This document shows, piece after piece, positions 23,626-42,329 of a stretch of DNA of 46,497 bases. A program made the translations under genes and the position numbers. Within the stretch, counting starts at the first letter, position 1. Each line of letters opens with the position of its first letter. The DNA comes from Bifidobacterium pluvialisilvae (lineage in GTDB: Bacteria > Actinomycetota > Actinomycetes > Actinomycetales > Bifidobacteriaceae), in assembly GCF_019331695.1 (NCBI RefSeq), contig NZ_JAHBBI010000015.1:1-46497 (forward strand), read 5' to 3'. The notes beneath the pieces were generated by a model. That model saw only the letters and a list, made by a program, of their open reading frames with translations. It searched no databases and was not told the DNA's origin.

Positions 23626-23634
23626 TGGTATTAT
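23626..23634 (+). promoter_or_regulatory. Extended -10 box before the pilus tip gene
   Basis: TGGTATTAT at 23626-23634 fits an extended -10 (TGn then TATTAT), giving a leader of about 75 bases before ATG 23717. No clear -35 is seen. Confidence 0.4.
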
Positions 23635-23716
23635 GCCGATTCTGTAGGCACTATCGTGTGGTGGAATTACGCATGAGGGGTGCCAGGGAACACAGGCTTG
23701 AGAAAAGAGCGGGATT

Positions 23717-26011: not shown

Positions 26012-26018
26012 GGCTTCC

Positions 26019-26160: not shown

Positions 26161-26205
26161 TCCGTAGTTGCAGAACAACAGTAATGAAAGGAAGAGGAGT
26201 TTCTT

Positions 26206-27825
26206 ATGAAGTTGAAGAAGCTTTTCGCGGGCGTCGCGGCTGCGGCGACCCTCTTGGGCGGCATGGCCTTCGGCGCCACCGCCAACGCGGCTGATGGTGA
26301 CACACTGGATGTCACCGTGCCGCAGAACATCGAAGTCAAGGGCGATGCTGTCAACGGTCACACGTTCCAGGCCGTGCTCATCGGCGCGTACGACAACGCC
26401 ACTCAGGACGCGAGCGGCAACCTGAAGAACGTTTCCGTGAACACGCCCGACGCTGTTAAGCCCGCCGTCTCCAAGGCGCTGAACGCGACCGACGCCAACT
26501 GGGCGAAGGACGCAGTGTACGCTGACAATCCGGCTGGCTACGTTGCCAAGAACTTCCTTGACAGCGGCAGCGATGCCACTCCGCAGTGGTCTGGCACCCT
26601 GCGCAATTTCGTGACCAACTTGGTCTCCTCCACCAACCCCGACGTGTTCGCCGGCTCCACGCTCACTGCCACGGGTGCGAACGGCGTTGCCACGTTCGAC
26701 AACCTCACGCCTGGTGTTTACGTCATCAAGGACGTGACCGACGGTGCCAAGTCCATTCCGATGCTCGTCGGCACCAAGGTCGCCGGCAAGAGCTTCGCCA
26801 ACGCTGCGCTCGGTGAGGTCGACGTCAAGCCGATCACCCTGCCCGCCCCGGTCAAGACCGCCGACAAGACCGCCGTCTACACCGGCGACACCGTGAAGTT
26901 CACGCTGACCGCCAAGGTTCCGAACACCACCGGTGTGACCGCCTTCGACTACCACATCAAGGACTACACGGCCACCAACGAGAGCCTTGACATTCTCGAT
27001 GACCCGGCTCTGACCGTCACCGCCACCAAGAAGGGTGCCAAGGAAGCAACGGTTCTGACCAAGGGTGCCGACTACACGGTTTCCGGTAACGCCAAGAGCG
27101 AGAATACCCCGCTTGACATCAACCTCTCCAACTCCGTGCTGAACCTTGAAATTGGTTCCACCATCACCGTTACGTACTCCGTGAAGGTTAACTCCTCCAT
27201 CACTAGCGGCTATCAGGTTCAGAACAGCGTCTACGTGCAGCATGACGACGCCAAGGTCGACGGCAACACCGTCACCCTGTACTCTGCCGAATTCCAGTTC
27301 CAGAAGATCGACGCTGATGACAATCCGGTGAATGGCGCTGAATTCGTCGTGAAGAACGCCGACAGCAAGTACCTCAAGGCGGACGGCTTCAACTGGACTT
27401 TCGTCGACAATGAGAGCGATGCCACTAAGTTCGCCTCCGGCGAGTATGGTTCCAATGGTTTCGTCGACATCAAGGGTGTGGCTCCTGGCACGTACACCGT
27501 CATCGAGACCAAGGCCCCCAACGGCTTCCTCCAGAGCGTGAAGCCTACCTTCACCGTCAATGTGCAGAACGATGCCACTCACGACTACAAGAAGGACGTT
27601 TCCTTCACCGAGACCACCAAGTTCGGTCTGGTCAAGGATTCGACTCTGCCCGGCGATAAGGACTTCAAGATTGCCAAGGTGACCAACGTCAAGTCGCTCA
27701 CCGAGCTGCCGAAGACCGGTGCCGCTGGCATCGCGATGTTCGTCGCCTTGGGCGTCGTGCTTGCCGGTGCCGCCGCCGCGGTGTACGGCAAGTCCCGTCG
27801 CGCGGGTTCCGCTCTGCGCGCCTGA
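26206..27825 (+). CDS. Major pilin (fimbrial backbone), LPKTG-anchored
   Basis: 539 residues. Signal peptide to about residue 28 (MAFGATANA). An N-terminal pilin domain to about 205 is followed by the lysine region TLPAPVKTADK (about 211-221), where the sortase-linked pilin lysine is expected, an isopeptide-type middle domain (KFTLTAKVPNTTGVTAFDY), and a SpaA-like domain (QKIDADDNPVNGAEFVVKNA) with the E-box YTVIETKAPNGF at about 432. The anchor is ELPKTG (about 500), a hydrophobic helix and SRRAGSALRA. This is the standard plan of SpaA/FimA backbone pilins polymerised by sortase C. RBS AGAGGAG at 26193-26199. Codons are less GC3-biased than the neighbours (many NNT). Confidence 0.92.
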   Translation: MKLKKLFAGVAAAATLLGGMAFGATANAADGDTLDVTVPQNIEVKGDAVNGHTFQAVLIGAYDNATQDASGNLKNVSVNTPDAVKPAVSKALNATDANWAKDAVYADNPAGYVAKNFLDSGSDATPQWSGTLRNFVTNLVSSTNPDVFAGSTLTATGANGVATFDNLTPGVYVIKDVTDGAKSIPMLVGTKVAGKSFANAALGEVDVKPITLPAPVKTADKTAVYTGDTVKFTLTAKVPNTTGVTAFDYHIKDYTATNESLDILDDPALTVTATKKGAKEATVLTKGADYTVSGNAKSENTPLDINLSNSVLNLEIGSTITVTYSVKVNSSITSGYQVQNSVYVQHDDAKVDGNTVTLYSAEFQFQKIDADDNPVNGAEFVVKNADSKYLKADGFNWTFVDNESDATKFASGEYGSNGFVDIKGVAPGTYTVIETKAPNGFLQSVKPTFTVNVQNDATHDYKKDVSFTETTKFGLVKDSTLPGDKDFKIAKVTNVKSLTELPKTGAAGIAMFVALGVVLAGAAAAVYGKSRRAGSALRA

Positions 27826-27858
27826 GACTGGTCGCAACGGTAATCGTGTGATATAGCA

Positions 27859-27901
27859 AAGCGTGGTGTCGTCCACCGGTATGGTGGAGGGCACCACGCT
27901 T
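27859..27901 (+). terminator. Hairpin ending the pilus operon
   Basis: AAGCGTGGTG (27859-27868) pairs with CACCACGCTT (27892-27901), and GTCCACC/GGTGGAG forms an inner stem. It lies 34 bases after the pilin stop. No strong U-run. Confidence 0.6.
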
Positions 27902-27939
27902 CGTTATCGGCATCGGATATCTGGTACAGGAAGTCAGCT

Positions 27940-28509
27940 ATGACAGACAACGAATTCACAAACGACGAGATCACGTATCTCCGCTCCCTGCGTGCCGTAG
28001 CCCGCGTGTCCAACGGCCGCATCCGCTATACGGAAGCGTTCAAACGCGAGTGCATGAGACGATACGGTGCCGGCGAATCCCCGGCGAAAATCTTCCGCGA
28101 CGCCGGATTGGACTCCTCGCTCATAGGATACAAGCGCATCGAACGATGCATCGCCCGCTGGCGCGGAATGCTGTCTGACGACTCCATCATGCATCCGGAG
28201 AACACACAGCCCTCACGCGTCCCGATGCCCACGCACGGCAAAGGGGAGGAATCCCCGGCCCCCGAGAACCACGCCAATGAGGAGACCGCCGAATCATCGT
28301 TCGCGCCCAAACTGCACGTACGCTCCGGACGCCGCGACCTGCGTGACCTGCTGATCGCCCAGCAGGTGCGACGCATCGAGGAGCTGGAACACGAGGTCAC
28401 CCTGCTCCAGACCGAACTCGAACGCATGCAGCAGGACGACACGGCCGGCAATACCGACGACGACATGGCCACGACCGCATCCGACGCCGACGAATCCAGC
28501 AATCGTTAA
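27940..28509 (+). CDS. IS3-OrfA-like HTH protein with C-terminal coiled coil
   Basis: 189 residues. Residues about 25-70 (RYTEAFKRECMRRYGAGESP ... RIERCIARWR) resemble the helix-turn-helix of IS3-type transposase OrfA. After a charged spacer, residues about 135-168 (QQVRRIEELEHEVTLLQTEL then ERMQQ) form a leucine-zipper-like coiled coil, and the tail is acidic. No orfB-type integrase gene or terminal inverted repeats are nearby, so it looks like a free-standing, perhaps domesticated DNA-binding protein rather than part of a live insertion sequence. RBS AGGAAG lies six bases before the ATG. It sits between the pilus operon and the beta-helix gene; a role controlling either is possible but unsupported. 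Confidence 0.7.
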   Translation: MTDNEFTNDEITYLRSLRAVARVSNGRIRYTEAFKRECMRRYGAGESPAKIFRDAGLDSSLIGYKRIERCIARWRGMLSDDSIMHPENTQPSRVPMPTHGKGEESPAPENHANEETAESSFAPKLHVRSGRRDLRDLLIAQQVRRIEELEHEVTLLQTELERMQQDDTAGNTDDDMATTASDADESSNR

Positions 28510-28618
28510 GGCGACATTCAACAATAATTTCATGAAGACGAAGGCGGTCTTACGGGCCGCCCAAGTCCATGCCATGGTACGCGTCGTTCAATGAGATCAT
28601 CCCGACGAAAGGATGATT

Positions 28619-30229
28619 ATGACGACGCACAGACCGACGCCACGCGCCGCGACACGACCAGCCGCGGCAGGCCCGGGCGTGGCGACGAAAAGACTCGTTG
28701 CCATCGTGGCCGCGGTATCCCTCGCAGGAGGCCTCGGCACCGGAGCGGCCGGCGTAATGCTGCTCGGACGCCTCTCGGGGCCGTCAGCCGCAGGCGGCGC
28801 ACCCGGCGGCGCCGGCGGGGCGAACACCATGAGCTACGACTACAACGGATCGTATTCCGCAACACTCACCGCGGACAGCACCGAAAAAACATCCGGCACG
28901 ACCGTAACCTCCACCAAGGCCGACCAGAACGCGGCGCTCGCGCAAAACGGCGGCACGCTCACCCTCGATGGCGCCACACTCAACAAATCCGGCGACGGCA
29001 GCAACGACGACAACGACAACTTCTACGGCACCAACTCCGTGCTGCTCGCCGTCGGCAAACAATCCAAGGCCATCGTCTCCGGCAGCACGATACGCGCCAC
29101 AAGCTCCGGATCGAACGGCATCTTCGCCACCGACTCCGCCACCGTGCTCGCCAACGACACAACCATCTCCACGACGTCCGACAACTCACGCGCCCTGGAC
29201 GCCACCTACGGCGGCACCATCCTCGCCAACGCCATCGACGCCACCACAGACGGCGACCACAGCGCGACCGTGGCCACAGACCGCGGCGGCGGAACGGTCT
29301 CCCTCACCGGATCCACGCTGAAAACCTCCGGATCGGGGTCGCCGCTGCTCTACTCCACCGGCGACGTGCAGGTCAACGGCGTGAACGGTACCGCGGACGG
29401 CAGCCAGATCGCCGGCATGGAAGGGCTGAACACCATCCTCATCAGCGACTCCACGCTCGAAAGCACCATCACGTCGAAAACCGCATCCGACCCCATCGCC
29501 AACGGCGTGATCATCTACCAGTCCACCTCCGGCGACGCGGAAGCCAGCACCGGCGAGCACGCCACATTCCAAGCCAAAGACTCCACGCTGAAATCCGCCA
29601 TCCAATCCGGATCGATGTTCTACTTCACCAACACGACCGCCGACGTGGTGCTCAGCAACACCACGCTCGACTTCGACACAGCCAAGGCCACGCTCATCAA
29701 CGCGTCCGGCAACGATTCCAACAAGTGGGGGCAGGCCGGATCGAACGGCGCCACCGTGAACTTCACCGGCCGCGGGCAGCAGCTCGAAGGCGACGTGACC
29801 GCCGACACCATATCCACGGTGAACCTGTATCTGCTCGACGGGTCGACGTGGAGCGGGAAAGCGAAGATCGTCGACAATGCCTCGGCGGCTTCGGAGTCCA
29901 CGGGGGCTTCGGGGTCCACGCCCGTGAGCGACGCGCCCATTGCCGTGAACGTGGACGGCACCTCCACATGGACGGTGACCGGCGACACCACCATCTCCAC
30001 ACTCAACGTGGCGTCGGGCGGACGTGTGGTGGACTCCAGCGGACGCAGCGTGACCATCGTGGCCGGCGGCAGAACCGTGGTGACCGGCAGCGGCGGGGTG
30101 ACCGTCACCGTGACAGGCGCGTACTCCACCACCGTGAACGCCGGCAGCGACACGAAACTCTCGGACGACGCGGTCGACAGGTCATCCTTCGACAAGCAGT
30201 TCAACACCACGACCACGTGGGGCATGTAA
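28619..30229 (+). CDS. Membrane-anchored right-handed beta-helix surface protein
   Basis: 536 residues. A short cytoplasmic Arg/Thr/Pro-rich head, one hydrophobic helix (about 22-52, LVAIVAAVSLAGGL), a Gly/Ala linker, then about 450 residues of short degenerate beta-helix turns (for example STIRATSSGSNGIFATDS, TTISTTSDNSRALDAT, STLKTSGSGSPLLYST). The segment DNDNFYGTNSVLLA and the YQSTSGDAEAS region match a large family of secreted beta-helix proteins in gut Firmicutes and actinobacteria that I recall as uncharacterised. The family may bind polysaccharide, but no ligand residues can be named. There is no LPxTG. ATG 28619 fits GAAAGGA six bases upstream; ATG 28613 is in frame. The next gene encodes a protein with a similar helix and Gly-rich linker. 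Confidence 0.75.
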   Translation: MTTHRPTPRAATRPAAAGPGVATKRLVAIVAAVSLAGGLGTGAAGVMLLGRLSGPSAAGGAPGGAGGANTMSYDYNGSYSATLTADSTEKTSGTTVTSTKADQNAALAQNGGTLTLDGATLNKSGDGSNDDNDNFYGTNSVLLAVGKQSKAIVSGSTIRATSSGSNGIFATDSATVLANDTTISTTSDNSRALDATYGGTILANAIDATTDGDHSATVATDRGGGTVSLTGSTLKTSGSGSPLLYSTGDVQVNGVNGTADGSQIAGMEGLNTILISDSTLESTITSKTASDPIANGVIIYQSTSGDAEASTGEHATFQAKDSTLKSAIQSGSMFYFTNTTADVVLSNTTLDFDTAKATLINASGNDSNKWGQAGSNGATVNFTGRGQQLEGDVTADTISTVNLYLLDGSTWSGKAKIVDNASAASESTGASGSTPVSDAPIAVNVDGTSTWTVTGDTTISTLNVASGGRVVDSSGRSVTIVAGGRTVVTGSGGVTVTVTGAYSTTVNAGSDTKLSDDAVDRSSFDKQFNTTTTWGM

Positions 30230-30435
30230 GGGCCACGCGAAACAGGCGACGGTCGCGGGGCCGTCAAGGGCGGTCGTGGGCGGTCGGGTCGGTAGGGCGG
30301 TCGTGAGACGGCCAGACCGCAGCGATTGCAAGAACCACCGGACTATAGGGAACCATCGGACTATAGGGAACGATCAACGATCAGAACAATCAGGTCATAA
30401 CGAACAATCACAGACAATTTGCTAAGGAGACAGCC

Positions 30436-31446
30436 ATGACAACGGCAACCATGAACACGATGACGAACACGGGTACGGCAGCGGTGAGCACGGCCACGGC
30501 GGCTTTGAACGCGATGACGTTCGTGCCCATCAGGCAGGGCAGCATCGGCATGAACGGCAGGACGCTCTCGCTCACGCACATCATGTCGTCGGTGAAACAC
30601 CGGCTCGGAGGATGGGAGTCGGCAGGTGGCTCCGGCTCCGGCGCGGGCTTCGGCTCCGGTTTTGGTGCGAGGGCGCGGGTGACCGGGCGGCACGTGGCCG
30701 GCGAAGATGACGAGGCGATGCGTACGGTGCAGGCGGAGCGGACGTCCGGGACGATGCGGACGGCGCAGTCGACGGGACGTGACTCCACGGCGGTCATGAG
30801 GCAGGAAGGCGGCGGCTCATCCCCGTATGGCTATGGCGGCGGTTCCGGCACGGCGAACGGCGCGGGTGCTGGTGCGGGTGCTGGTGCTGCTGGTGCGGGT
30901 GCGGGGTATGCGGGCGGCGTGACGGTGGCGTTGCCTCCGCGCAAGCCCGATTCCGACACCGGCGACGGCGATGACGGTCGCTCCGGCGGGTTCGGCGAAT
31001 CCGGCGGAAACGGTTCCGGCGGCAGGGGTGACGCCGGCCGGAAGGCGGGGTCGCATCATCATGACGGTATGGGGCGGAACGTCGGCGCCGGTACCGCGGC
31101 CGTCGGCGTCGGGCGACTGTCGGGCAAGACGTGGGGCATCCTCGCCGCGCTGGCGCTCGTATGCGGGCTCGTCGGCGGTGCGGGTGGCGCATTGGCCGTG
31201 ACGCACTTCACGGGCGGCGCCTCGGGCGGCCAGCAGCAGATGCAGCAGGGCGGCGGCAACATGGGCCAGCCGCCGAGCGGCAACGGCCAGGGCGGCCCCG
31301 GCGGCCAGCAGGGCAGCGGTTCGGGCTCGGATTCGGGCAGCAGCTCGAACGGTTCCAGCGGTTCCAGTGGGTCGAACGGGTCTAGTGGGTCCAGCGGTTC
31401 GAACAGCGGCTCGGGCTCCAGCAGTAGCTCCTCCAGCAGCAGCTGA
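30436..31446 (+). CDS. Gly/Ser-rich single-pass membrane protein, unknown function
   Basis: 336 residues, no recognised domain. Residues 1-230 are predicted cytoplasmic and become increasingly Gly/Ala-rich; a hydrophobic helix follows (about 236-260, WGILAALALVCGLVGGAGG), then GGQQQMQQGGGNMGQPPSGN and a tail of Gly-Ser-Asn repeats ending in nine serines at the stop codon. The helix plus Gly/Gln/Met-rich linker resembles the start of the upstream beta-helix protein, so it may be a relative that lost its beta-helix or never had one. RBS AAGGAG lies before ATG 30436. The 206-base gap to the upstream gene contains short CGGACTATAGGGAAC direct repeats (near 30340-30372) and no terminator. Confidence 0.65.
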   Translation: MTTATMNTMTNTGTAAVSTATAALNAMTFVPIRQGSIGMNGRTLSLTHIMSSVKHRLGGWESAGGSGSGAGFGSGFGARARVTGRHVAGEDDEAMRTVQAERTSGTMRTAQSTGRDSTAVMRQEGGGSSPYGYGGGSGTANGAGAGAGAGAAGAGAGYAGGVTVALPPRKPDSDTGDGDDGRSGGFGESGGNGSGGRGDAGRKAGSHHHDGMGRNVGAGTAAVGVGRLSGKTWGILAALALVCGLVGGAGGALAVTHFTGGASGGQQQMQQGGGNMGQPPSGNGQGGPGGQQGSGSGSDSGSSSNGSSGSSGSNGSSGSSGSNSGSGSSSSSSSSS

Positions 31447-31463
31447 GTGAGCGTTCTTCCTTA

Positions 31464-31805
31464 CTGTTATCCTGGGCGAGCGTTTCCCTACTGTCGTCCT
31501 GGGCGGGCGTTTCCCCTACTGTCGTTCTGGGCGAGCGTTCCCCCTATTGTCATCCTGAGCGAGCGCAGCGAGTCGAAGGATCTTATGAACGCCTCGTATG
31601 GAACCGTTCGAGATCCTTCGACTCCGGGCTTCGCCCTCCGCTCAGGATGACAGGGGGAGGTACATGCGCGTCGCCTTGGATGACAGGGGGTGGTGCATGC
31701 GCGTCGCCTTGGATGACAGGGGGAAGTGCATGCGCGTCGTTCTGGATGACGGAGGGACGCATGTCGTCGCCCCTGGATGACGGAGGGGCGCATGCGCGTC
31801 GCTGT
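31464..31805. repeat. GTCATCCTGAG repeat cluster E with 33-bp tandem array
   Basis: Three half-units, a complete palindrome (31548-31652), then five tandem units of about 33 bases from 31646 to about 31805 (GATGACAGGGGG head, CATGCGCGTCG body). No gene is seen between 31447 and 31886. Confidence 0.85.
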
Positions 31806-31886
31806 TCAATCTCACAAAAAAATTCCTAGACAAGCCTGTCGTTCATTGTTAGTGTGGTCGGCGATTAATCACGTATTCATACGGCA

Positions 31887-34800
31887 ATGATGGGATGGAC
31901 GATGTTCGACAAACGACTGTTCGCACTGGCGCCGGGAATCGGCCGTCTGGTCGCGGGCAAGGTGGCGTTGATGTGGGTGAGCCTGCTCGCCAACGTCGTG
32001 TTCATGATCACGGTGACCATGCTGCTGTCCGATGCGGCGGCCGCGTTCTCCGGCGGCGTCACGCTGTTCACCGGCGATCTGCGGCGGCGCGCGGTCATAT
32101 ACGCGGGCGTATTCGTGGCGGTGCTGATTGTGCGGTATGCGGCCACGCGCGCTTCGACACGGCTCGGATTCGAGGCCGCCGAACGGGTGAAGCTCGCGTT
32201 GCGCGAACGCCTCTACCGCAAGATGCTGCGGCTTGGACCGTCGTATTCCAGCCGGGTGAAGACCGCGGACGTGGTGCAGTCGGCCGGCGAGGGCGTCGAA
32301 CAGATCCAAAGCTTCTTCGAACTGTTCCTGCCGCAGCTGTTCTACGCGGTGCTGGCGCCGCTCACCCTGTTCGTGGTGCTGCTGCCGGTGAACTGGCCGG
32401 CGGCCGTGGTGCTGCTCGTCTGCGCTCCGCTCATCGTGGTGATCGTGGGGCTCGTGGCCATGCGCGCCGCCCGCGTGTTCAAGAAATACTGGGGCAAATA
32501 CACCGACATGGGCGCCGCGTTCCTCGATAATCTCCAGGGACTGGAGACGCTCAAGACCTTCGACGCGGACGGGCGTGCCGCACGCGACATGGATGCCAAG
32601 GCCGAGGAGTTCCGCGTGATGACCATGCGCGTGCTCCAAATACAACTGCGCTCGCTCACCGCCATGGACGTGGTGGCATACGGTGGTGCGGCCGCGGGCA
32701 TCGGCATGGCGGTGTGGCAGTCCGCGCACGGGGCGCTGGACTGGGGCGGCTGCCTGCTGATCGTGCTACTCTCCGCCGAGTTCTTCATCCCGCTGCGGCA
32801 GCTCGGCTCCTACTTCCACGTGGCGATGAACGGCATGACCTCCACCAAACGCATCTTCGCGCTGCTGGACGCGCCCGAACCGTCGTATGGCACCGCGGCG
32901 CTGGACGTGGCGGGGGAGACGTGCCTCGGGGTTTCGTTCGGGGACGTCGGGTTCGCGTATGACGATGGTGCTGTGAGCGGCGATGGCGCTGAGGGCGCTG
33001 ATGGCGCTGAGGGCGCGGACGGGGACGGGGATGCCGCCAAGCCCGCGTTGCGGGGCATCTCGTTCACGGCGCTGCCCGGCAGTCTCACCGCCATCGTGGG
33101 AGGCAGCGGCTCGGGCAAGTCGACCGCCGCCGCACTGCTCGCCGGCACGCTCACCGGATACACCGGGTCCATCGAACTGTGCGACGACCACACCGAATAC
33201 GAACTGCGTGACCTGTCCGCGGAATCGCTCACCGCGGCCGTGACGCTGGTCTCCTCGCGCTCGCACCTGTTCATGGGAACCCTTCGCGAGAACCTGCTCA
33301 TGGCCCGCCCCGATGCCACCGACGATGAACTGTGGCAGGCGCTGCATGACGCCCGCATCGACGAATTCGTGGACGCGCAGCCGGACGGGCTCGACATGCG
33401 CATCGAACAGGACGCCGCCAATCTCTCCGGCGGCCAGCGTCAGCGCATTGCCATCGCCCGCGCGCTGCTGCGCAACAGCATGGTCTACATCTTCGACGAG
33501 GCCACCAGCAGCGTCGATGCGGAAAGCGAGGCGCGGATCCTCGCCGTCATCCACGAGCTGGCGAATCGCAGGACCGTCATCATGATCACCCATCGCATGG
33601 CCAACGCGGTGGACGCCGACGCCGTGGCGGTGTTCTCGCACGGCCGGGTGGTCGAACAGGGCACCCACGCCGAGCTCATGGCCGCCGGCGGCGAGTACGC
33701 GGGGCTGTTCCGGGCGCAGGAGGCCATCGAAAACGTCTCCGCAACCGAAAAAGCGCGAGTTGTGGGTGTTCAATCCGGCGAATCGGCCGCCGATGGAGAG
33801 GCGAAGTTGGATGGCGGATTGTCAAAACCGCGGAATATCAACGATGGTGCGGCTGCGGCGACGGCTGCGGACGGGCGGTCTGCCAAAACAAACACCCACA
33901 ACTCGCGTTCTCGGCATGAATCGGTGATTCCACGGCTGCTCAAGGTGGCCAGTCCGCTCTCCGGATTCATGGTGGCGGCGTGCGTGTTCGGCGCGCTCGG
34001 GCATCTGGCGGCCACGTTCCTGCCGGTGTTCGGCATGATGGCGCTGTTCGCCGCGCTCGGGCAGCCCGTGTGGGGCATGGGCGTGGGCGCGTCGGTGGCC
34101 GGCATGGTCGTCTGCGCGCTGATTCGCGGCCTCATGCGCTACGCTGAACAGTTCATGAACCATAACGTGGCGTTCCGTCTGCTCGCGTTGTTCCGGTCGC
34201 GCGCGTTCGCCGCACTGCGCCGACTCGCCCCCGCCAAGCTCGACGCCAAGGGCAAGGGCGATCTCATCGCGCTGATCACCACCGACGTCGAGATGCTGGA
34301 GATCTTCTTCGCGCACACCATCTCGCCGGTGGTCATCGCCGTCAGCACCACCGTGGTGTATGCCGTGGCGTTGCTGCTGCTCAGCCCGCAGATGGCGCTG
34401 CTGCTCGTGTGCGCGCACCTCGTCATAGGGGCGGTGATTCCGGCGCTGTTCGGCCGTGCCGTGCGCGACATCGGCCCTAGGTTGCGCACGGACTCCTCGG
34501 CGCTCGACGACCAGGTGCTTGACGGCCTGCGCGGCGTGGACGAGATTATCCGCTTCGGCAGCGGCGAGACGCGCGTGGCCGACGTGGTCTCCCGCACGCG
34601 TGGCCTGTGGGCGCAGCGGGCGCGGCTCAACCGCATCAACGGGCATTACGCCGGCATCGGCGGCGTGCTCGTGATGGTGTTCACCGCGGCGGCCGTGGCG
34701 CTCGCCTTCTGCGGCATGCTGTTCGGGGGGCAGGCTGCTCCCGAGATGATTGTGGCCACGGTGCTGCTGGCCAGCTCCTTCGGCCCCACGCTGGCGTTGA

Positions 34801-35594
34801 GCGCCCTGCCAGCGAACCTCACCAACACGTTCGCCGCCGCACGCCGCCTGTTCGCGCTCATGGACGAATCGCCGGCCGTGGTGGAGCGCGGCACGCGGCG
34901 CCCGGCCTACACCGGCATGGCCATCGACCAGGCGACGTTCGCCTACCCGGACGCCGACGTCCCCGTGCTCTCCGGCTTCTCGCTCGATGTGCCGCGTTCC
35001 GGCGTACTCGGCATCTAGGGTCCGAGCGGCCGTGGCAAGTCCACCGTGCTCAAACTGCTCATGCGGTACTGGGATCCGCTGTCGGGCGAAGTGCGGTTCT
35101 CCGACGTGCCCCTGCCGGACGTCGACGCGCATCATCGCCGCCGCGTGCAGACCATGATGAGCCAGGAGACCGCCCTGTTCGACGGGACGATTCGCGAGAA
35201 CCTGCTTCTCGCCGTGCCGCAGCCGGAGGGGGCTAGCCAGGGCTCGACCCCGCAAGCGTCGACCGCGACCGACGCCGTACTGCGCGAGGCCTGCCGCAAG
35301 GCATCGGTGCTCGACCTCATCGACTCGCTCCCCGCCGGCCTCGACACCCCCGTCGGCGAACTGGGCGACCGCCTCTCCGAGGGTGAGCGCCAGCGCATCG
35401 GCCTGGCCCGCGTGTTCCTGCGCGACGCGTCACTCGTGCTCTTCGACGAGCCGACGAGTCGTCTCGACGCGCTCAACGAGGCCGTGATCCTCCAGTCCAT
35501 CAACACGCTGGCCTCGGAGCACGACGCCGCCATCGTGCTGGTTTCGCACCGCGCCTCCACCATGCGCATCGCCCACCGCGTCGTGCAGGTGTGA
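31887..35594 (+). pseudogene. Fused double ABC exporter, interrupted by an amber codon
   Basis: Reading through one stop codon gives about 1,235 residues with order TMD-NBD-TMD-NBD, i.e. two exporter half-transporters (CydD/CydC-like arrangement) in one chain. NBD1 has Walker A GGSGSGKST, signature LSGGQRQR and Walker B VYIFDEATSS. The frame stops at TAG 35016-35018, directly before GPSGRGKST, the second Walker A; the same frame continues with Q-loop MMSQETALFDG, signature LSEGERQR and Walker B LVLFDEPTS to 35594. Most likely a Leu codon TTG became TAG. The truncated product keeps both membrane domains but only one ATPase. A GTG at 35046 could restart translation but lacks the P-loop. The linker between halves carries an inverted-repeat element, and NBD1 has a 9-bp-repeat DGAEGA insertion. 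Start 31887 has a poor RBS; 31902 is an alternative. Substrate unknown. Confidence 0.85.
33754..33907. repeat. Small terminal-inverted-repeat element T, copy 2, inside a gene
   Basis: Perfect 17-bp terminal inverted repeats: CGCGAGTTGTGGGTGTT at 33754-33770 and its complement at 33891-33907. Interior landmarks ATCCGGCGAA, GGATTGTCAAAACCGCGGAA and GCCAAAACAAACACC correspond in order to the element at 16067-16172. Here the 154 bases are translated as residues about 623-674 of the ABC protein linker. Confidence 0.75.
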
Positions 35595-35613
35595 CGCGGT
35601 CGCCTTCCCGGCC

Positions 35614-35670
35614 GGGGGGGGGGCTGGAGCATTTCCCCCATTGTCATTCTGAGTAAAGGCACCCCCCCCC
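35614..35670. repeat. G10 and C9 homopolymer tracts
   Basis: Ten consecutive G at 35614-35623 and nine consecutive C at 35662-35670 lie within 60 bases, just after the ABC exporter stop. These are the longest homopolymers in the window. Confidence 0.9.
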
Positions 35671-35962
35671 ATTGTCATCCTGGGTAAAAAGGCATCTACC
35701 CCTTCCTTTGTCATTCTATGTAAAGGCGCCTTCTCCATTGTCATTCTGAGCGAGCGTAGCGAGTCGAAGAATCTCGGCGAGACAGGGGGCAAGATCCTTC
35801 GACTCCGGCCTGCGGCCTTCGCTCAGGATGACAGCAGGAGAGGAGATGCCTCCGCTCACGATGACAGCAGGAGAAGACGCCCTCGTCCACGATGACAACG
35901 GAGGGCAGGTGCCTCTGTTCACGATGACAGCAGGAGAGGAGGTGCCTCCGCTTAGGATGACA
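35642..35962. repeat. GTCATCCTGAG repeat cluster F
   Basis: Three degenerate half-units with GTAAAGGC spacers, a complete but slightly decayed palindrome (35739-35834), then four half-units on the right. It fills the convergent gap between the ABC exporter and the oxidoreductase; no gene is present. Confidence 0.85.
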
Positions 35963-35972
35963 ACGACTACGC

Positions 35973-36494
35973 TCAGTCCGTGAATGCGTCGGCGTATGCC
36001 TTGGCGGCGGCGTCCAGTTCCTCTTCGGTGATGGCCGACGTGTTCTGTACGAGAATCGGCTCGCGCCACGTGAGGTCCACGCGGAACGCGGTCAGCTCGA
36101 ACGGGCTGAGCAGCTCCTTCATCGTGTGCCCGTATTCGCCGTCGGTCTGGTAGCGCGACGCCGGCGACCCGGTCGTCACCACCAGCTGCACGGTCTTGCC
36201 GTCGAGCGCGGTGCCGCCGGCGTACGCCCAGCCGGGCGTCAGCACGGTGTCCTTCCACTGCTGCAGGAGCCTCGGCGCGCTGTACCAGTAGAACGGGAAC
36301 TCCAGCACCAGATGGTCGACCGACTCGACGAATGCCTGTTCGGCGGCCTTGTCCACCTTGAAGTCGGGGTAGAGCGCGTATTCGTCGCGCACGGTCACGT
36401 CGGCGGGATGACGGCTTTCCAACTCGTCGATCAGTCGACGGTTGATTTTCGATGCCGCATAATTCGGATGAAACAGCAGGATTCCGGTGGACAT
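35973..36494 (-). CDS. NAD(P)H-dependent oxidoreductase, flavodoxin-like fold
   Basis: 173 residues of the Flavodoxin_2/KefF-MdaB-like type. LLFHPNYAASKINRRLIDEL is the flavin-phosphate loop region; DHLVLEFPFYWYSAPRLLQQWKD holds the conserved P-x-YWYS-x-P segment, and TTGSPASRY the third loop. Such enzymes reduce quinones with NAD(P)H and some regulate K+ efflux channels; none is adjacent here. ATG 36494 is chosen over 36512 because AAGGGG lies eight bases upstream of it. The gene is divergent from the tRNA cluster, and its promoter should lie in the AT-rich stretch at 36590-36615. Confidence 0.87.
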   Translation of the reverse strand: MSTGILLFHPNYAASKINRRLIDELESRHPADVTVRDEYALYPDFKVDKAAEQAFVESVDHLVLEFPFYWYSAPRLLQQWKDTVLTPGWAYAGGTALDGKTVQLVVTTGSPASRYQTDGEYGHTMKELLSPFELTAFRVDLTWREPILVQNTSAITEEELDAAAKAYADAFTD

Positions 36495-36646
36495 GGGTTC
36501 GTCCCCTTCCATGGGTTGGTTATGGTGTGGTCATGCCGACCGTTTCCCAGTATATTGCCGTATGCCCATAACGTTCGCGACACGCCCGGATTTTTATTAT
36601 AAATACCAGTAATATCAAGCGTTTTCGAGGTTTTATGACGGTTCGG

Positions 36647-36675
36647 TTGGACAAGCTGGAATATTCGTGTATAGT
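36647..36675 (+). promoter_or_regulatory. Promoter of the tRNA cluster
   Basis: TTGGAC (36647-36652) and TATAGT (36670-36675) are exactly 17 bases apart, the best sigma-70-type promoter in the window, about 26 bases before the tRNA-Gly gene. Confidence 0.75.
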
Positions 36676-36701
36676 AGTCATTCGTTGCTTCACGGCGACA
36701 T

Positions 36702-36774
36702 GCGGACATAGCTTAGTTGGTAAAGCGCGACCTTGCCAAGGTCGAGACCGCGGGTTCGAGTCCCGTTGTCCGCT
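36702..36774 (+). tRNA. tRNA-Gly (GCC)
   Basis: 73 bases. Acceptor arms GCGGACA and TGTCCGC pair fully; anticodon loop CTTGCCAAG gives GCC; T arm GCGGGTTCGAGTCCCGT is canonical. CCA is not encoded. First of four tRNAs on one transcript. Confidence 0.96.
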
Positions 36775-36783
36775 CGCAGACCC

Positions 36784-36855
36784 GGGCGGTTGGCGCAGAG
36801 GTAGCGCACTTCCCTGACACGGAAGGGGTCACAAGTTCGAATCTTGTATCGCCCA
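36784..36855 (+). tRNA. tRNA-Val (GAC)
   Basis: 72 bases. Acceptor GGGCGGT with ATCGCCC (one G-U pair), D arm GCGC, anticodon GAC within CCTGACACGG, T arm with GTTCGAATC. No encoded CCA. Confidence 0.95.
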
Positions 36856-36901
36856 CTGAGCCGATTCGTTCGGTGAAACCGATAGCGATATCGGGAGCGT
36901 C

Positions 36902-36974
36902 GGGTGATTGGCGCAGCGGCTAGCGCACTTCCTTCACACGGAAGGGGTCGCAGGTTCGATTCCTGCATCACCCA
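36902..36974 (+). tRNA. tRNA-Val (CAC)
   Basis: 73 bases. Acceptor GGGTGAT with ATCACCC, anticodon CAC within CTTCACACGG, T arm GCAGGTTCGATTCCTGC. It is very similar to the preceding tRNA-Val(GAC), suggesting an old tandem duplication. Confidence 0.95.
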
Positions 36975-37016
36975 CGATGTGTGCAGGTCTTGCATCTGCC
37001 GCAGATAAGTGAATAC

Positions 37017-37089
37017 GGGGCTATGGCGCAGCTGGTAGCGCATCTCCATGGCATGGAGGGGGTCGGGGGTTCGAATCCCCCTAGCTCCA
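37017..37089 (+). tRNA. tRNA-Ala (GGC)
   Basis: 73 bases. Acceptor GGGGCTA with TAGCTCC, anticodon stem TCTCC/GGAGG around loop ATGGCAT (anticodon GGC), T arm GGGGGTTCGAATCCCCC. Last of the cluster. Confidence 0.95.
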
Positions 37090-37095
37090 CAGGGA

Positions 37096-37129
37096 AAATC
37101 CTCCGAGGCTTCGGCTTCGGAGGATTTTT
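37096..37129 (+). terminator. Rho-independent terminator of the tRNA cluster
   Basis: Stem AAATCCTCCGA (37096-37106) with TCGGAGGATTT (37117-37127), CTTCGG-type loop, followed by TTG and a T-rich stretch. It also forms well in reverse. Confidence 0.85.
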
Positions 37130-37180
37130 GTTTATCCCGTTATTCCGGTATCCCGGTCTGGGCCTTATGGCTCTTCCTGC

Positions 37181-37377
37181 ATTGATGACATCCTCCGCTT
37201 TGGCGTCTTTCACCTTGCTGCCATCCTCTATTTTGTCCTTCTCTACTCTTTGTCTTCTGCTATTCTTTGTCTTCCTCTGTTTTGTCGTCCCCTACGGTGT
37301 CGTCTTTCACTTTGTCGTCCCCCACTTTGGCGTCTTTCACTGTGTTGTCTCCGACTGTGCGGTCCACGCTCCGCTTT
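37181..37377. repeat. Degenerate 15-bp tandem array
   Basis: About twelve pyrimidine-rich units of mostly 15 bases with consensus close to YACTTTGTCGTCYYY (for example TTTCACTTTGTCGTC and CCCCACTTTGGCGTC). Units keep the reading frame but no start, RBS or conserved product is evident on either strand. It could be a decayed repeat-protein gene. Confidence 0.65.
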
Positions 37378-37418
37378 GCCCTTGGAATCCGCTATGGCCC
37401 TGTTTTATTTCTGGGTTT

Positions 37419-37557
37419 GTGGGTCCCGCGAGTCGCCGACAACGGAAAGTGAGTCTGAACGATTGCCAAAAACAAAAAGTGGGTCTAGAAGGTTGCAGAG
37501 AACGGAAAGTGGGTCTAAAAGTTTGTCAAAAATGAAAAGTGGGTCTAATGATTCGTG
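37419..37557. repeat. 30-bp tandem array with GTGGGTCTA core
   Basis: Four units start with AAAGTGRGTCT at 37446, 37476, 37506 and 37536, exactly 30 bases apart, with a partial TGTGGGTC at 37419. Their core is the reverse complement of the TAGACCCAC core of the array on the right. On the minus strand the units read as decapeptides of the form LDPLFVFxNR, but there is no convincing gene. Confidence 0.75.
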
Positions 37558-37590
37558 AGGACGAGGTTTTTGAGGTCCTCGTGTATGCCG

Positions 37591-38010
37591 TAGACCCACA
37601 AACCGCTATATGAACGGATTCACCCACTATTAATGAATGAGTGGGACCCACAAACTGGCTAAAATGATTGACCAGACCCACGAATCCAATCGGCTGACCC
37701 ACAAATCCGACCGTTTGGACCCACGAATCCGATTAGCTAGACCCACAAACCGATGAGCGGGCCGATAAGCTGGATACATGATTGGTCAGACCCACGAATC
37801 CAATTGATTAGACCCATAGATTCAATCGGCTAGACCCACAAATCGATGGGCTGACCCACAAATCCGACCGTTTGGATCCGTGAGTCCGATCGGGTAGACC
37901 CACAGATCCGATTGGTCAGGCCGACGAGCGGACCCACAAATCCGATCGGGTAGACCCACAAATCCAATCGGATAGACCCACGAAACCAATGGGCGGGCCT
38001 ACGAACCGGT
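37591..38010. repeat. 22-bp degenerate array with GACCCAC core
   Basis: About seventeen units, most 21-22 bases, with consensus GACCCACRAATCCRATCGG and a TA or CT end; a few are 12-30 bases. Two units are self-complementary variants (CCCACT...AGTGGG near 37630-37650). A small hairpin ACGAGG/CCTCGT (about 37560-37582) separates this array from the inverted one on its left. No gene is found between 37130 and 38221. Confidence 0.8.
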
Positions 38011-38050
38011 GGTGAATGTCTGGGCCTGCGGACCGTGTGCGGCGTTGCTC

Positions 38051-38087
38051 CGTTCACTCTTTTGGCGGGGGCTGGAAAGAGTGAACG
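38051..38087. repeat. Hairpin with TTCACTCTTT arms, first
   Basis: Perfect 12-bp stem CGTTCACTCTTT (38051-38062) with AAAGAGTGAACG (38076-38087). The same ten-base word forms the stem of the next hairpin at 38163-38210. Confidence 0.75.
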
Positions 38088-38162
38088 GGAATGATTCTCA
38101 AGAGAACAGGATTTTCCCGGAAATATGCCGAATGTCATGTACGGGAATGGGAGAAGATGAGC

Positions 38163-38210
38163 GTTTGGGATTCACTCTTTGGCTCCGCTGCAAAAGAGTG
38201 AATCCCAAAC
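38163..38210 (-). terminator. Strong hairpin after the permease gene
   Basis: Perfect 18-bp stem GTTTGGGATTCACTCTTT (38163-38180) with its complement at 38193-38210 and a 12-base loop, 11 bases beyond the permease stop codon. It lacks a U-run but is well placed as the 3' end. Confidence 0.65.
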
Positions 38211-38221
38211 CACCAGCCCCG

Positions 38222-39748
38222 CTACGAGAGCATCACCTCGCGCTTGGGATGCGTTCTGCGCCACCACTGCTGCACAAAATACGCGGCGTAGCAGAACACG
38301 ATGAACACCAGCTCGGCCCCAAGTGCGAACCGCTGCTCCTTGTCGAAGAAGACCAGCAGGAACGAGGCGGTGCACAGGATGAACGCGCCCCACGAGGTCC
38401 ACGGGTGGCCGGGCGTCGCATACTTGAGCTCGCCGACCGTATGACCGGAGGCAATCCAGCGCTTACGGAACACGATCTGGCAGTACGCAATCGCAATCCA
38501 CACCACCACAGCCGACAATCCTGATAGCGCCACCAACACCAGATACACGGTCGACGCCGCCACCACCGACGAGAGCAGCGCGAGCAGGCCGCCGGCCATC
38601 GCCGCGCACAACGCCAGCATCGGCACGCCACTACGGTTCGTCTTGGCGAACCAACGCGGGATCATGCCCTCATGACCCATCGACCACACCATGCGCGTCG
38701 AAGCGTACAGGCCGGAGTTCGAGGCGGACAGCACGGCCGTGAGCACCACGAAGTTCATGATGTCGGCCGCATAGGGAATGCCCACCGAGTTGAGCACAAG
38801 CACGAACGGGCTTTCGCCCACGCCCGCCTGACGCCACGGAATCAGCGCGCTCATCACCACGATCGAACCGATGAAGAAGAGGACCAAGCGCCACAGCGTG
38901 GTGTGGATCGCCTTCGGCACCGCTTTCTCCGGGTTACGCGTCTCACCCGCCGTCACGCCGATGAGCTCGGTGCCGGAGAACGCGAAGTTCACGGTCAGAA
39001 TCGTTGCGAACACGGGCATGAACCCGTTGGGGAAGATGCCGTCCTTGAACAGGTTGTCGAACATCGGCGCATGCGTGTACCCCTTCATAGGGATGAAGCC
39101 GAAAATCGTGAGCGCACCAATCAGGATGAACGCGCAGATCGCGAACACCTTGATCGAGGCGAACCAGAACTCCGCCTCGGCGAAGAACCGCACGGAAAGC
39201 GCGTTCAGCGTGAATATCAGCACGATGCACGCCGCCGACCATATCCACGTGGGCGTGTGCGGGAACCATCGTTGCATAAGCAGTCCCGCCGCCGTGAACT
39301 CCGAGCCGAGTGCCACCGTCCACGTCAGCCAGTATTGGATGGCGACCACGAATCCCGTGCCCGGTCCGATGAACTTCTCCGCATACACGTGGAACGAGCC
39401 CGTCACCGGCATGGCCACCGAAAGCTCGCCCAGCGTGAGCATGACCAGATACACGATCACCGCGCCAATCGCGTACGCCAGAATCGTGCCGATCGGGCCG
39501 GCCTGCTGAATCGTATAGCCGGAACTCAGAAACAGGCCGGTGCCGATGACACCGCCGAGCGAGATCATCTGCAGATGCCGCGCCTCCATGCCGCGCTTGA
39601 GATTCGTGTGCAGGGCGTGCTTCTGGTTGACGGCATGACCGTCGTCGTTGCCGGCGTCGGCGGACGCGTCGTGTTCGGCCGCGTCGTCGGCCGTGACGTC
39701 CGGTGATGCGGATCGAGGCTCCGCAGCCTCGGTATCGGATTGGCTCAT
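38222..39748 (-). CDS. APC-superfamily amino-acid permease
   Basis: 508 residues with about 12 membrane helices after a hydrophilic Asp/Ala-rich N-terminus (about 50 residues). [20 protein letters not shown] then TGLFLSSG is the unwound first helix typical of the amino-acid transporter family; [20 protein letters not shown] is the conserved helix-6 to loop region. It imports amino acids, probably by proton symport; relatives include lysine, proline and S-methylmethionine permeases, and the substrate cannot be fixed here. Start 39748 has AAAGAGAG upstream; the longer frame to 39805 lacks a site. TATACT on the minus strand near 39833 may be its -10 box. A strong hairpin follows the stop. Confidence 0.9.
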
Positions 39749-40018
39749 GGTTCTCTCTTTTGCTGCTGTCGTCAAGTTTTTCAAGGGATTGCGTCCGCCG
39801 CCCATGATGCCGGCGGCGAAAACGACCCCGAACAGTATACGTTTCCAGCCCTACGAGCGGCATCGCCGCCGGAATCGTTATCGGTGCCATGGAATGACGG
39901 CCTATTCTCGTCACATTCGCGGCGCTAGAGTGGAGGTGATGCAGTATTCGCCGCAGTCCGCGACGTTCGTAGCGAACGCGCGGACGGATGCGCGGCGATG
40001 GAGAGAACGGAGCATATG

Positions 40019-40528
40019 ATGACCTCGCCTCAGGCCGGATGGTATCCCGATCCTTCGGGAGATACGACGCGCATGCGTTGGTGGGATGGAATGCAGTGGA
40101 CGCAAAACGTGATGCCGGCGCAGCCGGATTCGCAGCAGCCGCCGTACGGTGGCGGGAACATGGGATATGGGCAGTCTGGGCCGCAGCCGGGCTACGGCCA
40201 GCCGAACCAGCCGGGCTACGGGCAGCAGCCTGGCCAGTCCGGCTACCAGCAGCAGCCGTATGCCGGCGTTGTGACCAATGGCGCGATATATCCGATGACC
40301 GATTCCGACCGCACGTTGCGTATGGTCGCGTTCATCTTCAACATCATCAGCATTGCGGGAACGTGCTGGCTGATCGTCCCACTGGCGTGGATGATTCCGA
40401 TGACGATTCGCAGCTGGGGCATCTATCAGGGCACGAAGCCGAACACGATGGCGTTCGGCATCTGCGATCTGCTGTTCTGCAGTCTGATCGGCGGCATCCT
40501 GCTGCTGATTTCGAATAAGAACGAGTGA
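40019..40528 (+). CDS. DUF2510-containing small membrane protein
   Basis: 169 residues. Residues about 5-35 form a DUF2510 domain (AGWYPDPSGDTTRMRWWDGM then QWTQ), a tryptophan-rich motif common in actinobacterial membrane proteins. A Gly-Tyr-Gln-Pro repeat linker follows (GYGQ units, about 50-85), then two hydrophobic segments (about 100-125 and 143-163) and a lysine-rich end. Function is unknown; such proteins are usually anchored to the membrane with the DUF2510 in the cytoplasm. ATG 40019 fits GGAG six bases upstream; 40016 is in frame. TAGAGT near 39929 could be its -10 box. The 270-base divergent gap to the permease contains no gene. Confidence 0.8.
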   Translation: MTSPQAGWYPDPSGDTTRMRWWDGMQWTQNVMPAQPDSQQPPYGGGNMGYGQSGPQPGYGQPNQPGYGQQPGQSGYQQQPYAGVVTNGAIYPMTDSDRTLRMVAFIFNIISIAGTCWLIVPLAWMIPMTIRSWGIYQGTKPNTMAFGICDLLFCSLIGGILLLISNKNE

Positions 40529-40529
40529 A

Positions 40530-40625
40530 CAGGGCGGATTGACGGTGCCAAATGGTCGTTTTTTTCAGCGAAAAACGACCATTTGGCACCGTCAATCGCC
40601 GATAACGGGATTTTGCGCCCGTCAT
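40530..40625 (+). repeat. Hairpin repeat family H, copy 2
   Basis: Perfect 24-bp stem (40540-40563 with 40571-40594, 7-base loop) with words GGTGCC-AAAT-GGTCGTTTTT, then the tail ATCGCCGATAACGGG and GCCCGT. It starts 11 bases after the DUF2510 gene stop. Confidence 0.85.
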
Positions 40626-40685
40626 TGGCAACGGTGGGGACTAGGATATCCACGGCGAAAGGGAGCGTGACGATAGGAGAACGGC

Positions 40686-42329
40686 ATGACGAAGGCGGCG
40701 AGCACGGGGAAAACCACGTCGGACGATGCCAAGCTGAGTAATGCCGCGTCCAACGATGCCGTGTCGAGCAATGCCGCATCGACCGCGTCGAATAATGCCG
40801 CGTCGAATAACGCTACGTCGACCGATTGGCGGCGGATCGGATGGCTCGTCGTCGCCTCCCTCGTGCTCGGCGCGATCATCGGCGTGGGCGCGGGCCTGCT
40901 CACGCTGCTGCTCTACGGCGTGGAACACGTGATGCTTGGCTATGTCGAAGGGCCGTCGATTCCCGGCCCGTTCGCCGTGCCATGGATTCGCCGGGCCGTA
41001 TCGGTGACGGCCGGCCTGTTCATCGCCGCCGTCATCTGGTATCTCCTCCGCACCAAGACCACGAAGGTGCCATCGGTCAAGAAGGCCGTCGCCGGCGAAC
41101 GGATGCCATGGTGGCAGACCGTCGTGCACGTAGTATTGCAGATCTTCATCGTCGGGTCGGGCGCATCCATCGGCCGCGAGGTCGCGCCGCGCGAACTCGG
41201 CGCCATGCTCGCGCAACGGTTCTGCGACGTCTTCCATCTCGAACGCGCGGACCGGCGCATGGTCGTGGCCGTGGCGGCGGGCGCCGGCCTCGGCGGCGTC
41301 TACGACGCGCCGTTGGCCGGTATGTTCTTCGCGGCGGAGATTTTGCTCGGCAGCATCTCCATCGAGACCATCGCGTTCGGACTGGGCATGTCGGCGACCG
41401 CGGCCTACGTGGCGTCGCTGATCAAAGGCCATCATGCGTTCTACGACATCACGGCCATGCAGCCGGGGGAGACGTCGAGTCTGATGCTGTTCGCGCTGGT
41501 GTGCGGGGCGTTGTGCGGCGCGGCGGGCGCGCTGTTCCGGCGTGGCTCGTCGTGGGCGGAGTCGCATAAGCCGGCCGGAAAGCAGTCACTCGGGCTGCTG
41601 TGGCAGATGCCGTTGGCCGGCGTATTGACCGGCGTGGTCGCCACCGCCGTGCCGCAGGTCATGGGCAACGGGCGCGCCGCCGCGCAACTCGGATTCAGCA
41701 CGTTCGTGGGGGCCCCTGGCGTCGCGTCGTCATCGGGCGCCGTGCAGTCGGTTGTGGCGGCGGCCGCATCGCCGTGGACGCTGCTGGCCAATGGCGACGA
41801 CGCGGTCGGCGGCTGGCTGCGTGGGCTCGGTTTCGGCGGTGCGGCGGGTTCCGGTGCGTCGGGCGGTGCGTCCGTCGTGGCCCCCGGTGCGGCCTCCGTG
41901 CACGTCGTCTCCAGCATCGACCTTCATCACCTCGGTCTCATGCTCGCCATCCTCGCCGTCACGTTCGTCGTGAAGGCCATCGTGACGTTGCTGACCATCC
42001 GGTCGGGCGCGTCCGGCGGCGTGCTGCAGCCCGGCATCGCCCTCGGCGCCACGCTCGGCGCGATGCTCGGCCTGATGTGGACGCTCGCGTTCCCCGCCGA
42101 CTCGATTACGGCATGCGCGCTCATCGGCGCGGCCGCGCTGCTCTCCGCCTCGCAGCAGGCCCCGCTCATGGCCATGTGCCTCGTCATGGAGCTCACCGAG
42201 GCGCCGATCACATTCTTTGTGCCCGTGGGCCTCGCCGTCGCCGCGTCCGCGTTCGTTTCCAGCTGGCTGCTCGGCCGCACCGCCCGCAAGCCGGTCGCCG
42301 CTGCTGACGACGTCCCCGCCGCCGTCTGA
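40686..42329 (+). CDS. ClC-family chloride channel/transporter
   Basis: 547 residues. After a low-complexity Ala/Ser/Asn N-terminus (about 45 residues) come about ten membrane helices. IVGSGASIGREVAPRELGAM corresponds to the GREGP ion-path motif, keeping the gating glutamate but with GREV-AP in place of GREGP; GVYDAPLAGMFFAAEIL and GASGGVLQPGIALGATLGAM match the later conserved helices. Extra hydrophilic, Gly/Ala-rich sequence between about residues 325 and 410 is longer than in the E. coli protein. It moves chloride, possibly in exchange for protons. RBS AGGAG precedes ATG 40686. Confidence 0.88.
   Translation: MTKAASTGKTTSDDAKLSNAASNDAVSSNAASTASNNAASNNATSTDWRRIGWLVVASLVLGAIIGVGAGLLTLLLYGVEHVMLGYVEGPSIPGPFAVPWIRRAVSVTAGLFIAAVIWYLLRTKTTKVPSVKKAVAGERMPWWQTVVHVVLQIFIVGSGASIGREVAPRELGAMLAQRFCDVFHLERADRRMVVAVAAGAGLGGVYDAPLAGMFFAAEILLGSISIETIAFGLGMSATAAYVASLIKGHHAFYDITAMQPGETSSLMLFALVCGALCGAAGALFRRGSSWAESHKPAGKQSLGLLWQMPLAGVLTGVVATAVPQVMGNGRAAAQLGFSTFVGAPGVASSSGAVQSVVAAAASPWTLLANGDDAVGGWLRGLGFGGAAGSGASGGASVVAPGAASVHVVSSIDLHHLGLMLAILAVTFVVKAIVTLLTIRSGASGGVLQPGIALGATLGAMLGLMWTLAFPADSITACALIGAAALLSASQQAPLMAMCLVMELTEAPITFFVPVGLAVAASAFVSSWLLGRTARKPVAAADDVPAAV

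Follow-up and report, generated by a model that had tools for sequence, protein, structure and literature searches.

The array and its neighbourhood

The window (the whole stretch of 46,497 nucleotides analysed here) is contig 7 of a 2.66-Mb host genome, called G000 below; the nearest named relatives found for this host are Bifidobacterium primatium (G004) and B. saimiriisciurei (G005). The array that is the subject of this report has a tRNA cluster and a terminator-like hairpin on one side and a converging amino-acid permease gene on the other (Table 1). A preliminary description of this DNA had noted the upstream tRNA cluster, where four tRNAs were confirmed, and had called the region between it and the permease gene gene-free, which is correct by our home-made codon-usage gene call, although unscored open reading frames do exist there.

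Table 1. Features of the array and its flanks, in window coordinates.
Feature	Position	Strand	Remarks
tRNA Gly-Val-Val-Ala cluster, then intrinsic-terminator-like hairpin	36702..37130	+	upstream of array; kept in relatives
Weak 15/30-bp pyrimidine-rich array	37181..37377		detected with TRF
Left satellite array	37419..37538		four 30-bp units beginning with GTGGGTC; the second degenerate, GTGAGTC
Central 61-bp palindrome (37539-37599) and one base on each side	37538..37600		R2 match
Inner palindrome CGTGAGGAC..GTCCTCGTG	37554..37583
Right module	37600..37651		52 bp: a 28-bp unit with ATGAACG, then one of 24 bp with TTAATGAA; both end in a CCCAC core; part of alignment A1
Right satellite array	37652..37981		GACCCAC cores, spacing about 20-30 bp or multiples
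Amino-acid permease gene	38222..39805	-	converges on array

The cores are inverted about a single centre, GTGGGTC to the left of the palindrome and GACCCAC to the right, just as the preliminary description had seen around a central hairpin. Exact GTGGGTC cores begin at 37419, 37479, 37509 and 37539 and the degenerate GTGAGTC at 37449, so that the 30-bp array described is present as five starts (four exact, one degenerate) at 30-bp steps; the fifth start is also that of the left arm of the centre. On the right there are 13 exact GACCCAC cores, one at 37593 that closes the centre and 12 in 37645-37975, as well as one-base variants; the cores expected there were thus found, but the constant spacing of about 22 bp assigned to them was not, as the 28+24 pair is followed by units of mixed length. 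The 15-bp array described at 37181-37377 proved weak and periodic in parts only, with TRF reporting period 17 (88% match) at 37232-37274, period 30 (84%) at 37281-37349 and period 15 (73%) at 37298-37350. Our structured covariance model, R2, has one match in the window at E values up to 1 (59.5 bits, E 1.3e-14), and the R1 match covers 37533-37653.

The window also carries a second repeat family, of GTCATCCTGAGYGGAG units, at 15155-15337, 17064-17329, 19134-19408, 31449-31802 and 35635-35962; four of the five consist of a forward array and then one of its reverse complement, a head-to-head arrangement like that of the array studied here. Two long near-perfect hairpins, GTTCACTCTTT..AAAGAGTGAAC and GGGATTCACTCTTT..AAAGAGTGAATCCC, lie at 38047-38088 and 38168-38207, and sequence similar to them is present in the orthologous B. 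primatium gap (L069). A 3094-aa open frame at 261-9545 contains an SdrD_B-like domain and seven isopeptide stretches of FctA/Spy0128 type, and is probably a giant surface adhesin.

A dispersed family in the host genome

The pattern TAGACCCAC occurs 164 times in the host genome (87+77), against 43 times (22+21) for a reversed-pattern control. When the core was searched for elsewhere in this genome, as the preliminary description had proposed, exact cores facing one another with 42-48 bases between them were found at 40 places, and at none with the reversed-pattern control; overall they always measure 61 or 62 bp. With no constraint on length, the fetched host loci contain 43 facing core pairs within 100 bp, and in 40 of these the distance is 54 or 55 bp, part of these loci having been fetched by the spaced pattern itself. 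All 40 copies lie clear of the genes predicted from codon usage. The window array is one of about 40 host copies of this interspersed palindromic family.

Alignment A1, which took in the 30 of 40 host copies that entered with a recognisable right module and 6 of 10 copies from the named relatives, has 145 model columns and a mean identity of 76%, and comprises a 30-bp unit, the palindrome, a 28-bp ATGAACG unit and a 24-bp TTATTGAA unit; the other ten host copies have no clear right module or were omitted. The number of satellite units varies among copies. Helical phasing of the units is not claimed, because a resultant of 0.58 at period 10.25 is accompanied by one of 0.56 at period 7.5.

Counted by copy (n=40), the flanking genes are convergent in 14 cases, divergent in 1 and co-directional in 22, and 3 copies are at contig ends. 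A hand count by gap, to which the tRNAs and the partner gene (below) were added, gives 13 convergent, 2 divergent, 15 co-directional and 2 at contig ends; 13 convergent against 2 divergent gaps gives p 0.007, some of the neighbouring gene calls in both counts being weak. Pfam names could be given to 29 of 60 flanking genes, among them typA, obgE, rplI, rplQ, argS, glnA and leuA-type genes. The avoidance of predicted genes, the excess of convergent gaps, the housekeeping neighbours and the lack of a strand bias would all fit sites that are useful to the host, at which one of its DNA-binding proteins organises the chromosome or insulates converging genes, and beside which a regulator or defence gene happens to lie. 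We consider this explanation unlikely, on grounds that are given with the comparisons among genomes below; one is that it leaves the linked gene unexplained.

The preliminary description had also pointed to integration next to tRNAs; a tRNA gene adjoins 5 of 31 element-bearing gaps in the host genome and 26 of 31 have no adjacent tRNA, which gives such a link no support. Target-site duplications were seen at 3 of 34 arrays and in 12 of 386 mispaired controls. At host locus L016 (1850-2700), a copy of about 26 bp of the 3' end of the upstream gene is found on both sides of the array and is single in G002 and G004; it is possibly a long duplication from insertion, and is not general across arrays. 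An Rce1-like gene flanks host locus L017. A phage origin of the element was considered and rejected, as there is no DNA match in phages and the element pattern has 0 matches in IMG/VR.

Relatives with the same layout and other core words

The exact-core pattern is found in 3 of 9 genomes of the genus, with 40 copies in the host, 9 in G004 and 5 in G005, a difference among close relatives that counts against sites kept for host use. A half-specific pattern is found in 3 of 189 family genomes, and a sequence-only model gave strong matches only in the host, G004 and G005 and weak ones in 11 other genomes, some of which proved on reading to have the same layout with a different core. At E<=0.001, R2 matched 27 of the 189 family genomes, including 8 of the 9 in the host's own genus (28 candidates scored per genome). 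With both strands summed and 150 candidates scored per genome, there are 73 matches in the host, 45 in G004, 32 in G005, 32 in G002, 73 in G133, 26 in G056, 19 in G061, 9 in G095, 8 in G024, 5 in G097 and 3 in G158. We read copies from 24 of the 27 R2-positive genomes, the others being G028, G065 and G117 with 1, 1 and 2 matches; 23 of the 24 fit, the host included, and G158 is doubtful. A match in a WOR-3 MAG (L063) was set aside as probably due to chance.

These genomes differ in the word that forms the core (Table 2), and we refer to the different words as dialects. Among the host copies GTGGGTC prevails and one ATTTGGTC copy was seen, and G004 and G005 have both GTGGGTC and ACTTGG-type copies; in most genomes the outer core has one spelling among the copies read. 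At the position of the inner palindrome a CAYGAR-like sequence is kept in the other dialects. Three elements are half-and-half chimeras of two dialects (host C21:45388, host C21:125334 and G004 C1:976015), and the first and last of these are orthologous (74% over 653 bp).

Table 2. Core words by genome, from 1-6 copies read per genome, with small variants within each.
Word	Genomes
TCTGGGTAT	G001, G007, G008
ATTTGGTC	G002
ACTTGGCC	G006
AGTGGGGATT	G024
GTGGGCATAG	G026, G031, G068
TCTGGGCAT	G037, G069, G074, G076, G089, G095
GTGTGCAT	G056, G061
TGTGGGTG, one GTGGGCAT copy	G058
AGTGGGYGTT	G097
ACTGGGC	G133

Covariation of the palindrome arms

A palindrome of this kind could act as a folded structure, either a transcribed hairpin such as a terminator or mRNA stabiliser, or a cruciform in DNA, and a structured non-coding RNA had been one of the suggestions made for the window array. 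In the host genome the arms give little sign of this. Among 31 distinct host 61-mers they vary almost independently, and in the comparison of dialects the host group has 296 paired cells against 283 expected (p 0.015). RNAalifold found compensatory change at 0 of 16 pairs. There are 74 G.T and 64 A.C mismatches, near enough to equal that neither strand is favoured. The suggestion finds no support in the host family, and over the window Rfam at its gathering threshold gave no family besides tRNAs. Elements also point either way relative to genes. Other dialects are more favourable to folding: in three of them (13, 16 and 12 copies, with the R2 match L127:2348 left out of the count) several of columns 8-17 covary between the arms, but inner columns 20-25 have no clear covariation in any group. 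In a 64-column alignment of 31 centres across dialects, 87% of cells are paired and 20 of 25 pairs are changed on both sides, against a mean of 14.6 in shuffled controls and 4-12 in slid controls; this cross-dialect covariation is partly circular, because the examples were partly picked as palindromes. We therefore judge a hairpin or cruciform function very unlikely, the least probable of the explanations weighed here. We read the pattern of covariation as two-fold-symmetric recognition of double-stranded DNA, with a hairpin role possible in other species. The protein-binding array that had been proposed for the window receives indirect support from the rigid core spacing, the absence of strand preference and a candidate partner protein (below).

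Turnover at orthologous sites

The gap between the tRNAs and the permease gene contains the full array in the host and, in B. saimiriisciurei, one left unit and the centre followed by another open reading frame. In B. primatium it seems to keep a decayed remnant and in G002 it has no element, all of which agrees with the hypervariable site that had been suspected here. The B. saimiriisciurei locus (L067) has a CPBP-protease-like frame, recognised by eye, between the element and the permease gene, and this frame is absent from the window. Of ten element loci in the named relatives, six align to element-bearing loci of the host, with flanks of 70-94% identity, mostly >81%.

In eleven orthologous pairings (L025 and L050 being used twice, and some arrays being unaligned beyond the centre), 94 of 121 outer-core positions agree, as do 893 of 1436 others; at L046/L116 the relative's cores have decayed. 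The preliminary description had named unconserved cores and random decay of units as results that would count against it, and these were found only in part: the outer cores are kept better than other positions, but L046/L116 is an instance of decay. Better conservation of the cores is also what sites of use to the host would show. Sixteen further host loci were traced in G002, G004 and G005, and six of them (L010, L016, L018, L021, L052 and L053) have no match to the model in any of the three, which counts against such use. At 6 of the 16 an ACTTGG-type element is present in the same gap of at least one relative (L015, L024, L026, L045 with two copies in G004, L046 with a weak one in G004, and L049). 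At L049 the dialects occupy different spots of one gap and G004 has the two together, so that rewriting in place is not proven.

Empty or unmatched orthologous sites, variable unit numbers and decayed copies could also be left by neutral junk, that is, by decaying MITEs of an unrelated, lost transposase whose arrays have grown by slippage. The rigid centre over 40 copies, the conservation of the outer cores above that of other positions, the missing target-site duplications and the fact that one gene recurs beside such palindromes in two classes of bacteria (below) all argue against this, and we regard it as quite improbable.

A gene flanked by the elements

Two host elements 1.9 kb apart on contig 16 enclose an open reading frame of 342 aa (317 aa from the conserved start), which we call the partner gene. 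Its G004 homologue lies between two ACTTGG-type elements. A tblastn search against the fetched loci found the gene in G000, G001, G004, G007, G031, G058 and G068, and wider stretches gave full copies and one additional genome, G002, for a total of eight family genomes. R2 elements flank it on both sides in 7 of the 8 copies and on one side in G007, and the nearest element is 34-321 bp away; the gene was sought in fetched loci, nearly all of them near elements, so that these figures would miss copies elsewhere. Among 21 genomes sampled around element matches, five have the gene where 0.04 would be expected for a randomly placed single-copy gene; the tblastn search had no match in the other 16, among them G002, where the gene was found later in a wider stretch. 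The gene is absent from 14 of 20 wider stretches and from all 20 of a further set (9 genomes). Two other pairs of elements about 1.5 kb apart (L219, L220) enclose open reading frames unrelated to it. In L219 (G058, 1665-3345) the frame between two elements 1.6 kb apart is ATPase-like by eye, and is a possible cargo.

In G000, G001, G002, G004 and G007 an EamA-like gene, rpsJ or both are found no more than about 3.5 kb from the partner gene, and this common neighbourhood indicates that the place of the gene is old; G005 has one weak element and no partner gene between EamA and rpsJ. The partner protein diverges faster than its neighbour: between host and G004 it is 58.5% identical against 92% for EamA, and the contrast is weaker between host and G007 (62% against 80%) and between host and G001 (63% against 74%, from a partial EamA). 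The rpsJ product is 100% identical between the host and G001, G002, G005 and G007. Partner proteins associated with the same dialect are alike (83% for G004 and G002, both ACTTGG-type; 82% for G001 and G007; 92% for G031 and G068), whereas all cross-dialect pairs are 45-64% identical, partner-gene type and dialect being partly confounded with phylogeny in this comparison. G004 has GTGGGTC elements, yet the only partner gene found in it has ACTTGG-type flanks.

The C-terminal part is the most conserved region in all 7 pairs of partner proteins compared, and all 9 proteins share R-V-D, W, E-L-D-G and K-Y (RVD..W..ExDGxxKY type) and, further on, E..RE without variation. We take the invariant D..ExDGxxK residues to resemble those of DUF559/Vsr-like PD-(D/E)XK nucleases; by this motif the protein is a putative nuclease, which may cut DNA. 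Below threshold, Pfam gave AbiEi_4 (E 0.2) in one of seven members and DUF559 (E 0.022) for the Collinsella protein only (see below). There was no match in NCBIfam and no credible match among solved structures. In phages no partner gene was found, and of 24 pattern matches in IMG/VR none was confirmed.

A homologue in Collinsella

In a plasmid collection the partner protein had a single match, at 28% identity, to a hypothetical protein from Collinsella aerofaciens, whose gene has palindromes of about 60 bp on both sides. Within the surrounding 50 kb, palindromes of 57 bp with GTCTCGATCTGTAACA-like arms number 13; none is more than 10 kb from the gene, and six are next to it. Another 50 kb of the same record has none, apart from a single stray half-site, and five shuffled motifs gave 0-1 matches. 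In sequence these palindromes do not resemble the Bifidobacterium words, and their distribution is local, not dispersed. At 22740-41292 of this locus (L236) there are tandem groups of the 57-bp palindromes about 80 bp apart; such groups near the homologue suggest local spreading.

A proposed repeat-spreading system

We think it probable, with moderate confidence, that the window array belongs to a non-coding palindrome family partnered with one protein-coding gene, in an organisation like that of REP/REPIN and RAYT but with an unrelated protein. A fuller version of this reading is more tentative, and we would not give it quite an even chance: an Actinomycetota repeat-spreading system in which a small non-RAYT protein of winged-helix/PD-(D/E)XK type recognises and copies the two-fold-symmetric palindrome and, as its specificity evolves, displaces older dialects by break-induced conversion, making it a second, independent REP/RAYT-like invention that is common to Bifidobacteriaceae and Coriobacteriaceae. 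For the first of these readings we propose that the N-terminal and middle parts of the partner protein, which diverge faster, would bind the half-sites, and that its C-terminal D..ExDGxxK (DUF559/Vsr-like) part may cut or nick at the palindrome. Repair of the break from another copy would then spread the element, lengthen the satellite arrays and displace other dialects, and the core words would follow shifts in the specificity of the protein.

Comparison with known systems

We recognised no description of the element or the partner gene in the open-licence PMC literature (titles and abstract openings). The closest parallel is with REP/REPIN sequences, described in the available text of PMC2817692, PMC3116915 and PMC3733652 as extragenic palindromes in inverted doublets that are species-specific and form ordered clusters, and with RAYT, whose gene is described there as single-copy, fast-evolving and located next to the repeats or between them; types of gene and of repeat evolve jointly in that account. 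Here, likewise, 40 facing core pairs include none in a predicted gene, and the partner gene is flanked by the repeats (on two sides in 7 of 8 and on one side in 1 of 8 copies in the fetched loci) and diverges along with them. Unlike REP, the element has no GTAG/CGTC foot, ending in GTGG, TCTG, ATTT, ACTT and similar in the copies inspected for the dialect table, and it is longer (about 62 bp), with a rigid geometry and satellite arrays. Unlike RAYT, the partner is not a Y1/HUH protein; PF01797 is found in 0 of 8 element-bearing genus genomes and in 1 of the 9 genus genomes overall, G003, which itself has no R2 match.

The BOX element of Streptococcus pneumoniae, in the available part of PMC3049150, is similarly composite, some modules being fixed and a tandem part varying, and is intergenic and enriched between converging genes. 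The layout differs: BOX has the order boxA-boxB(n)-boxC with a variable tandem middle, while here a head-to-head palindrome has its satellites outside, in the order satellites, palindrome, right module, satellites. That part of PMC3049150 names no partner gene for BOX, and the element here has a candidate one. ERIC, BIME and Correia-type repeats and MITEs are also small, non-coding and intergenic in the same partial account (PMC3049150), and the terminal inverted repeats GTGGGTC...GACCCAC are MITE-like, but we found no target-site duplication above controls at our arrays, and a dedicated gene is a candidate here. The dialects recall those of the Neisseriaceae DNA uptake sequence, a short word, not the same in all relatives, for which there is a recognition protein according to the parts of PMC3630211 and PMC3868556 available; unlike a word spread genome-wide, ours occurs in tens of clustered copies within a fixed palindrome.

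The mode of copying of REP/RAYT and the reason for its retention are left open in the available text of PMC3116915 and PMC3733652. If the same organisation exists with an unrelated protein, its essentials (a palindrome, a linked gene and matched evolution) can be separated from the accident of the HUH family, and the series of dialects, the chimeras and the other-dialect copies in the same gaps are a natural experiment on how specificity and target change together. The fast-diverging, nuclease-like gene next to copies of the element in eight genomes hints that short repeats may be spread here by a system not recognised before.
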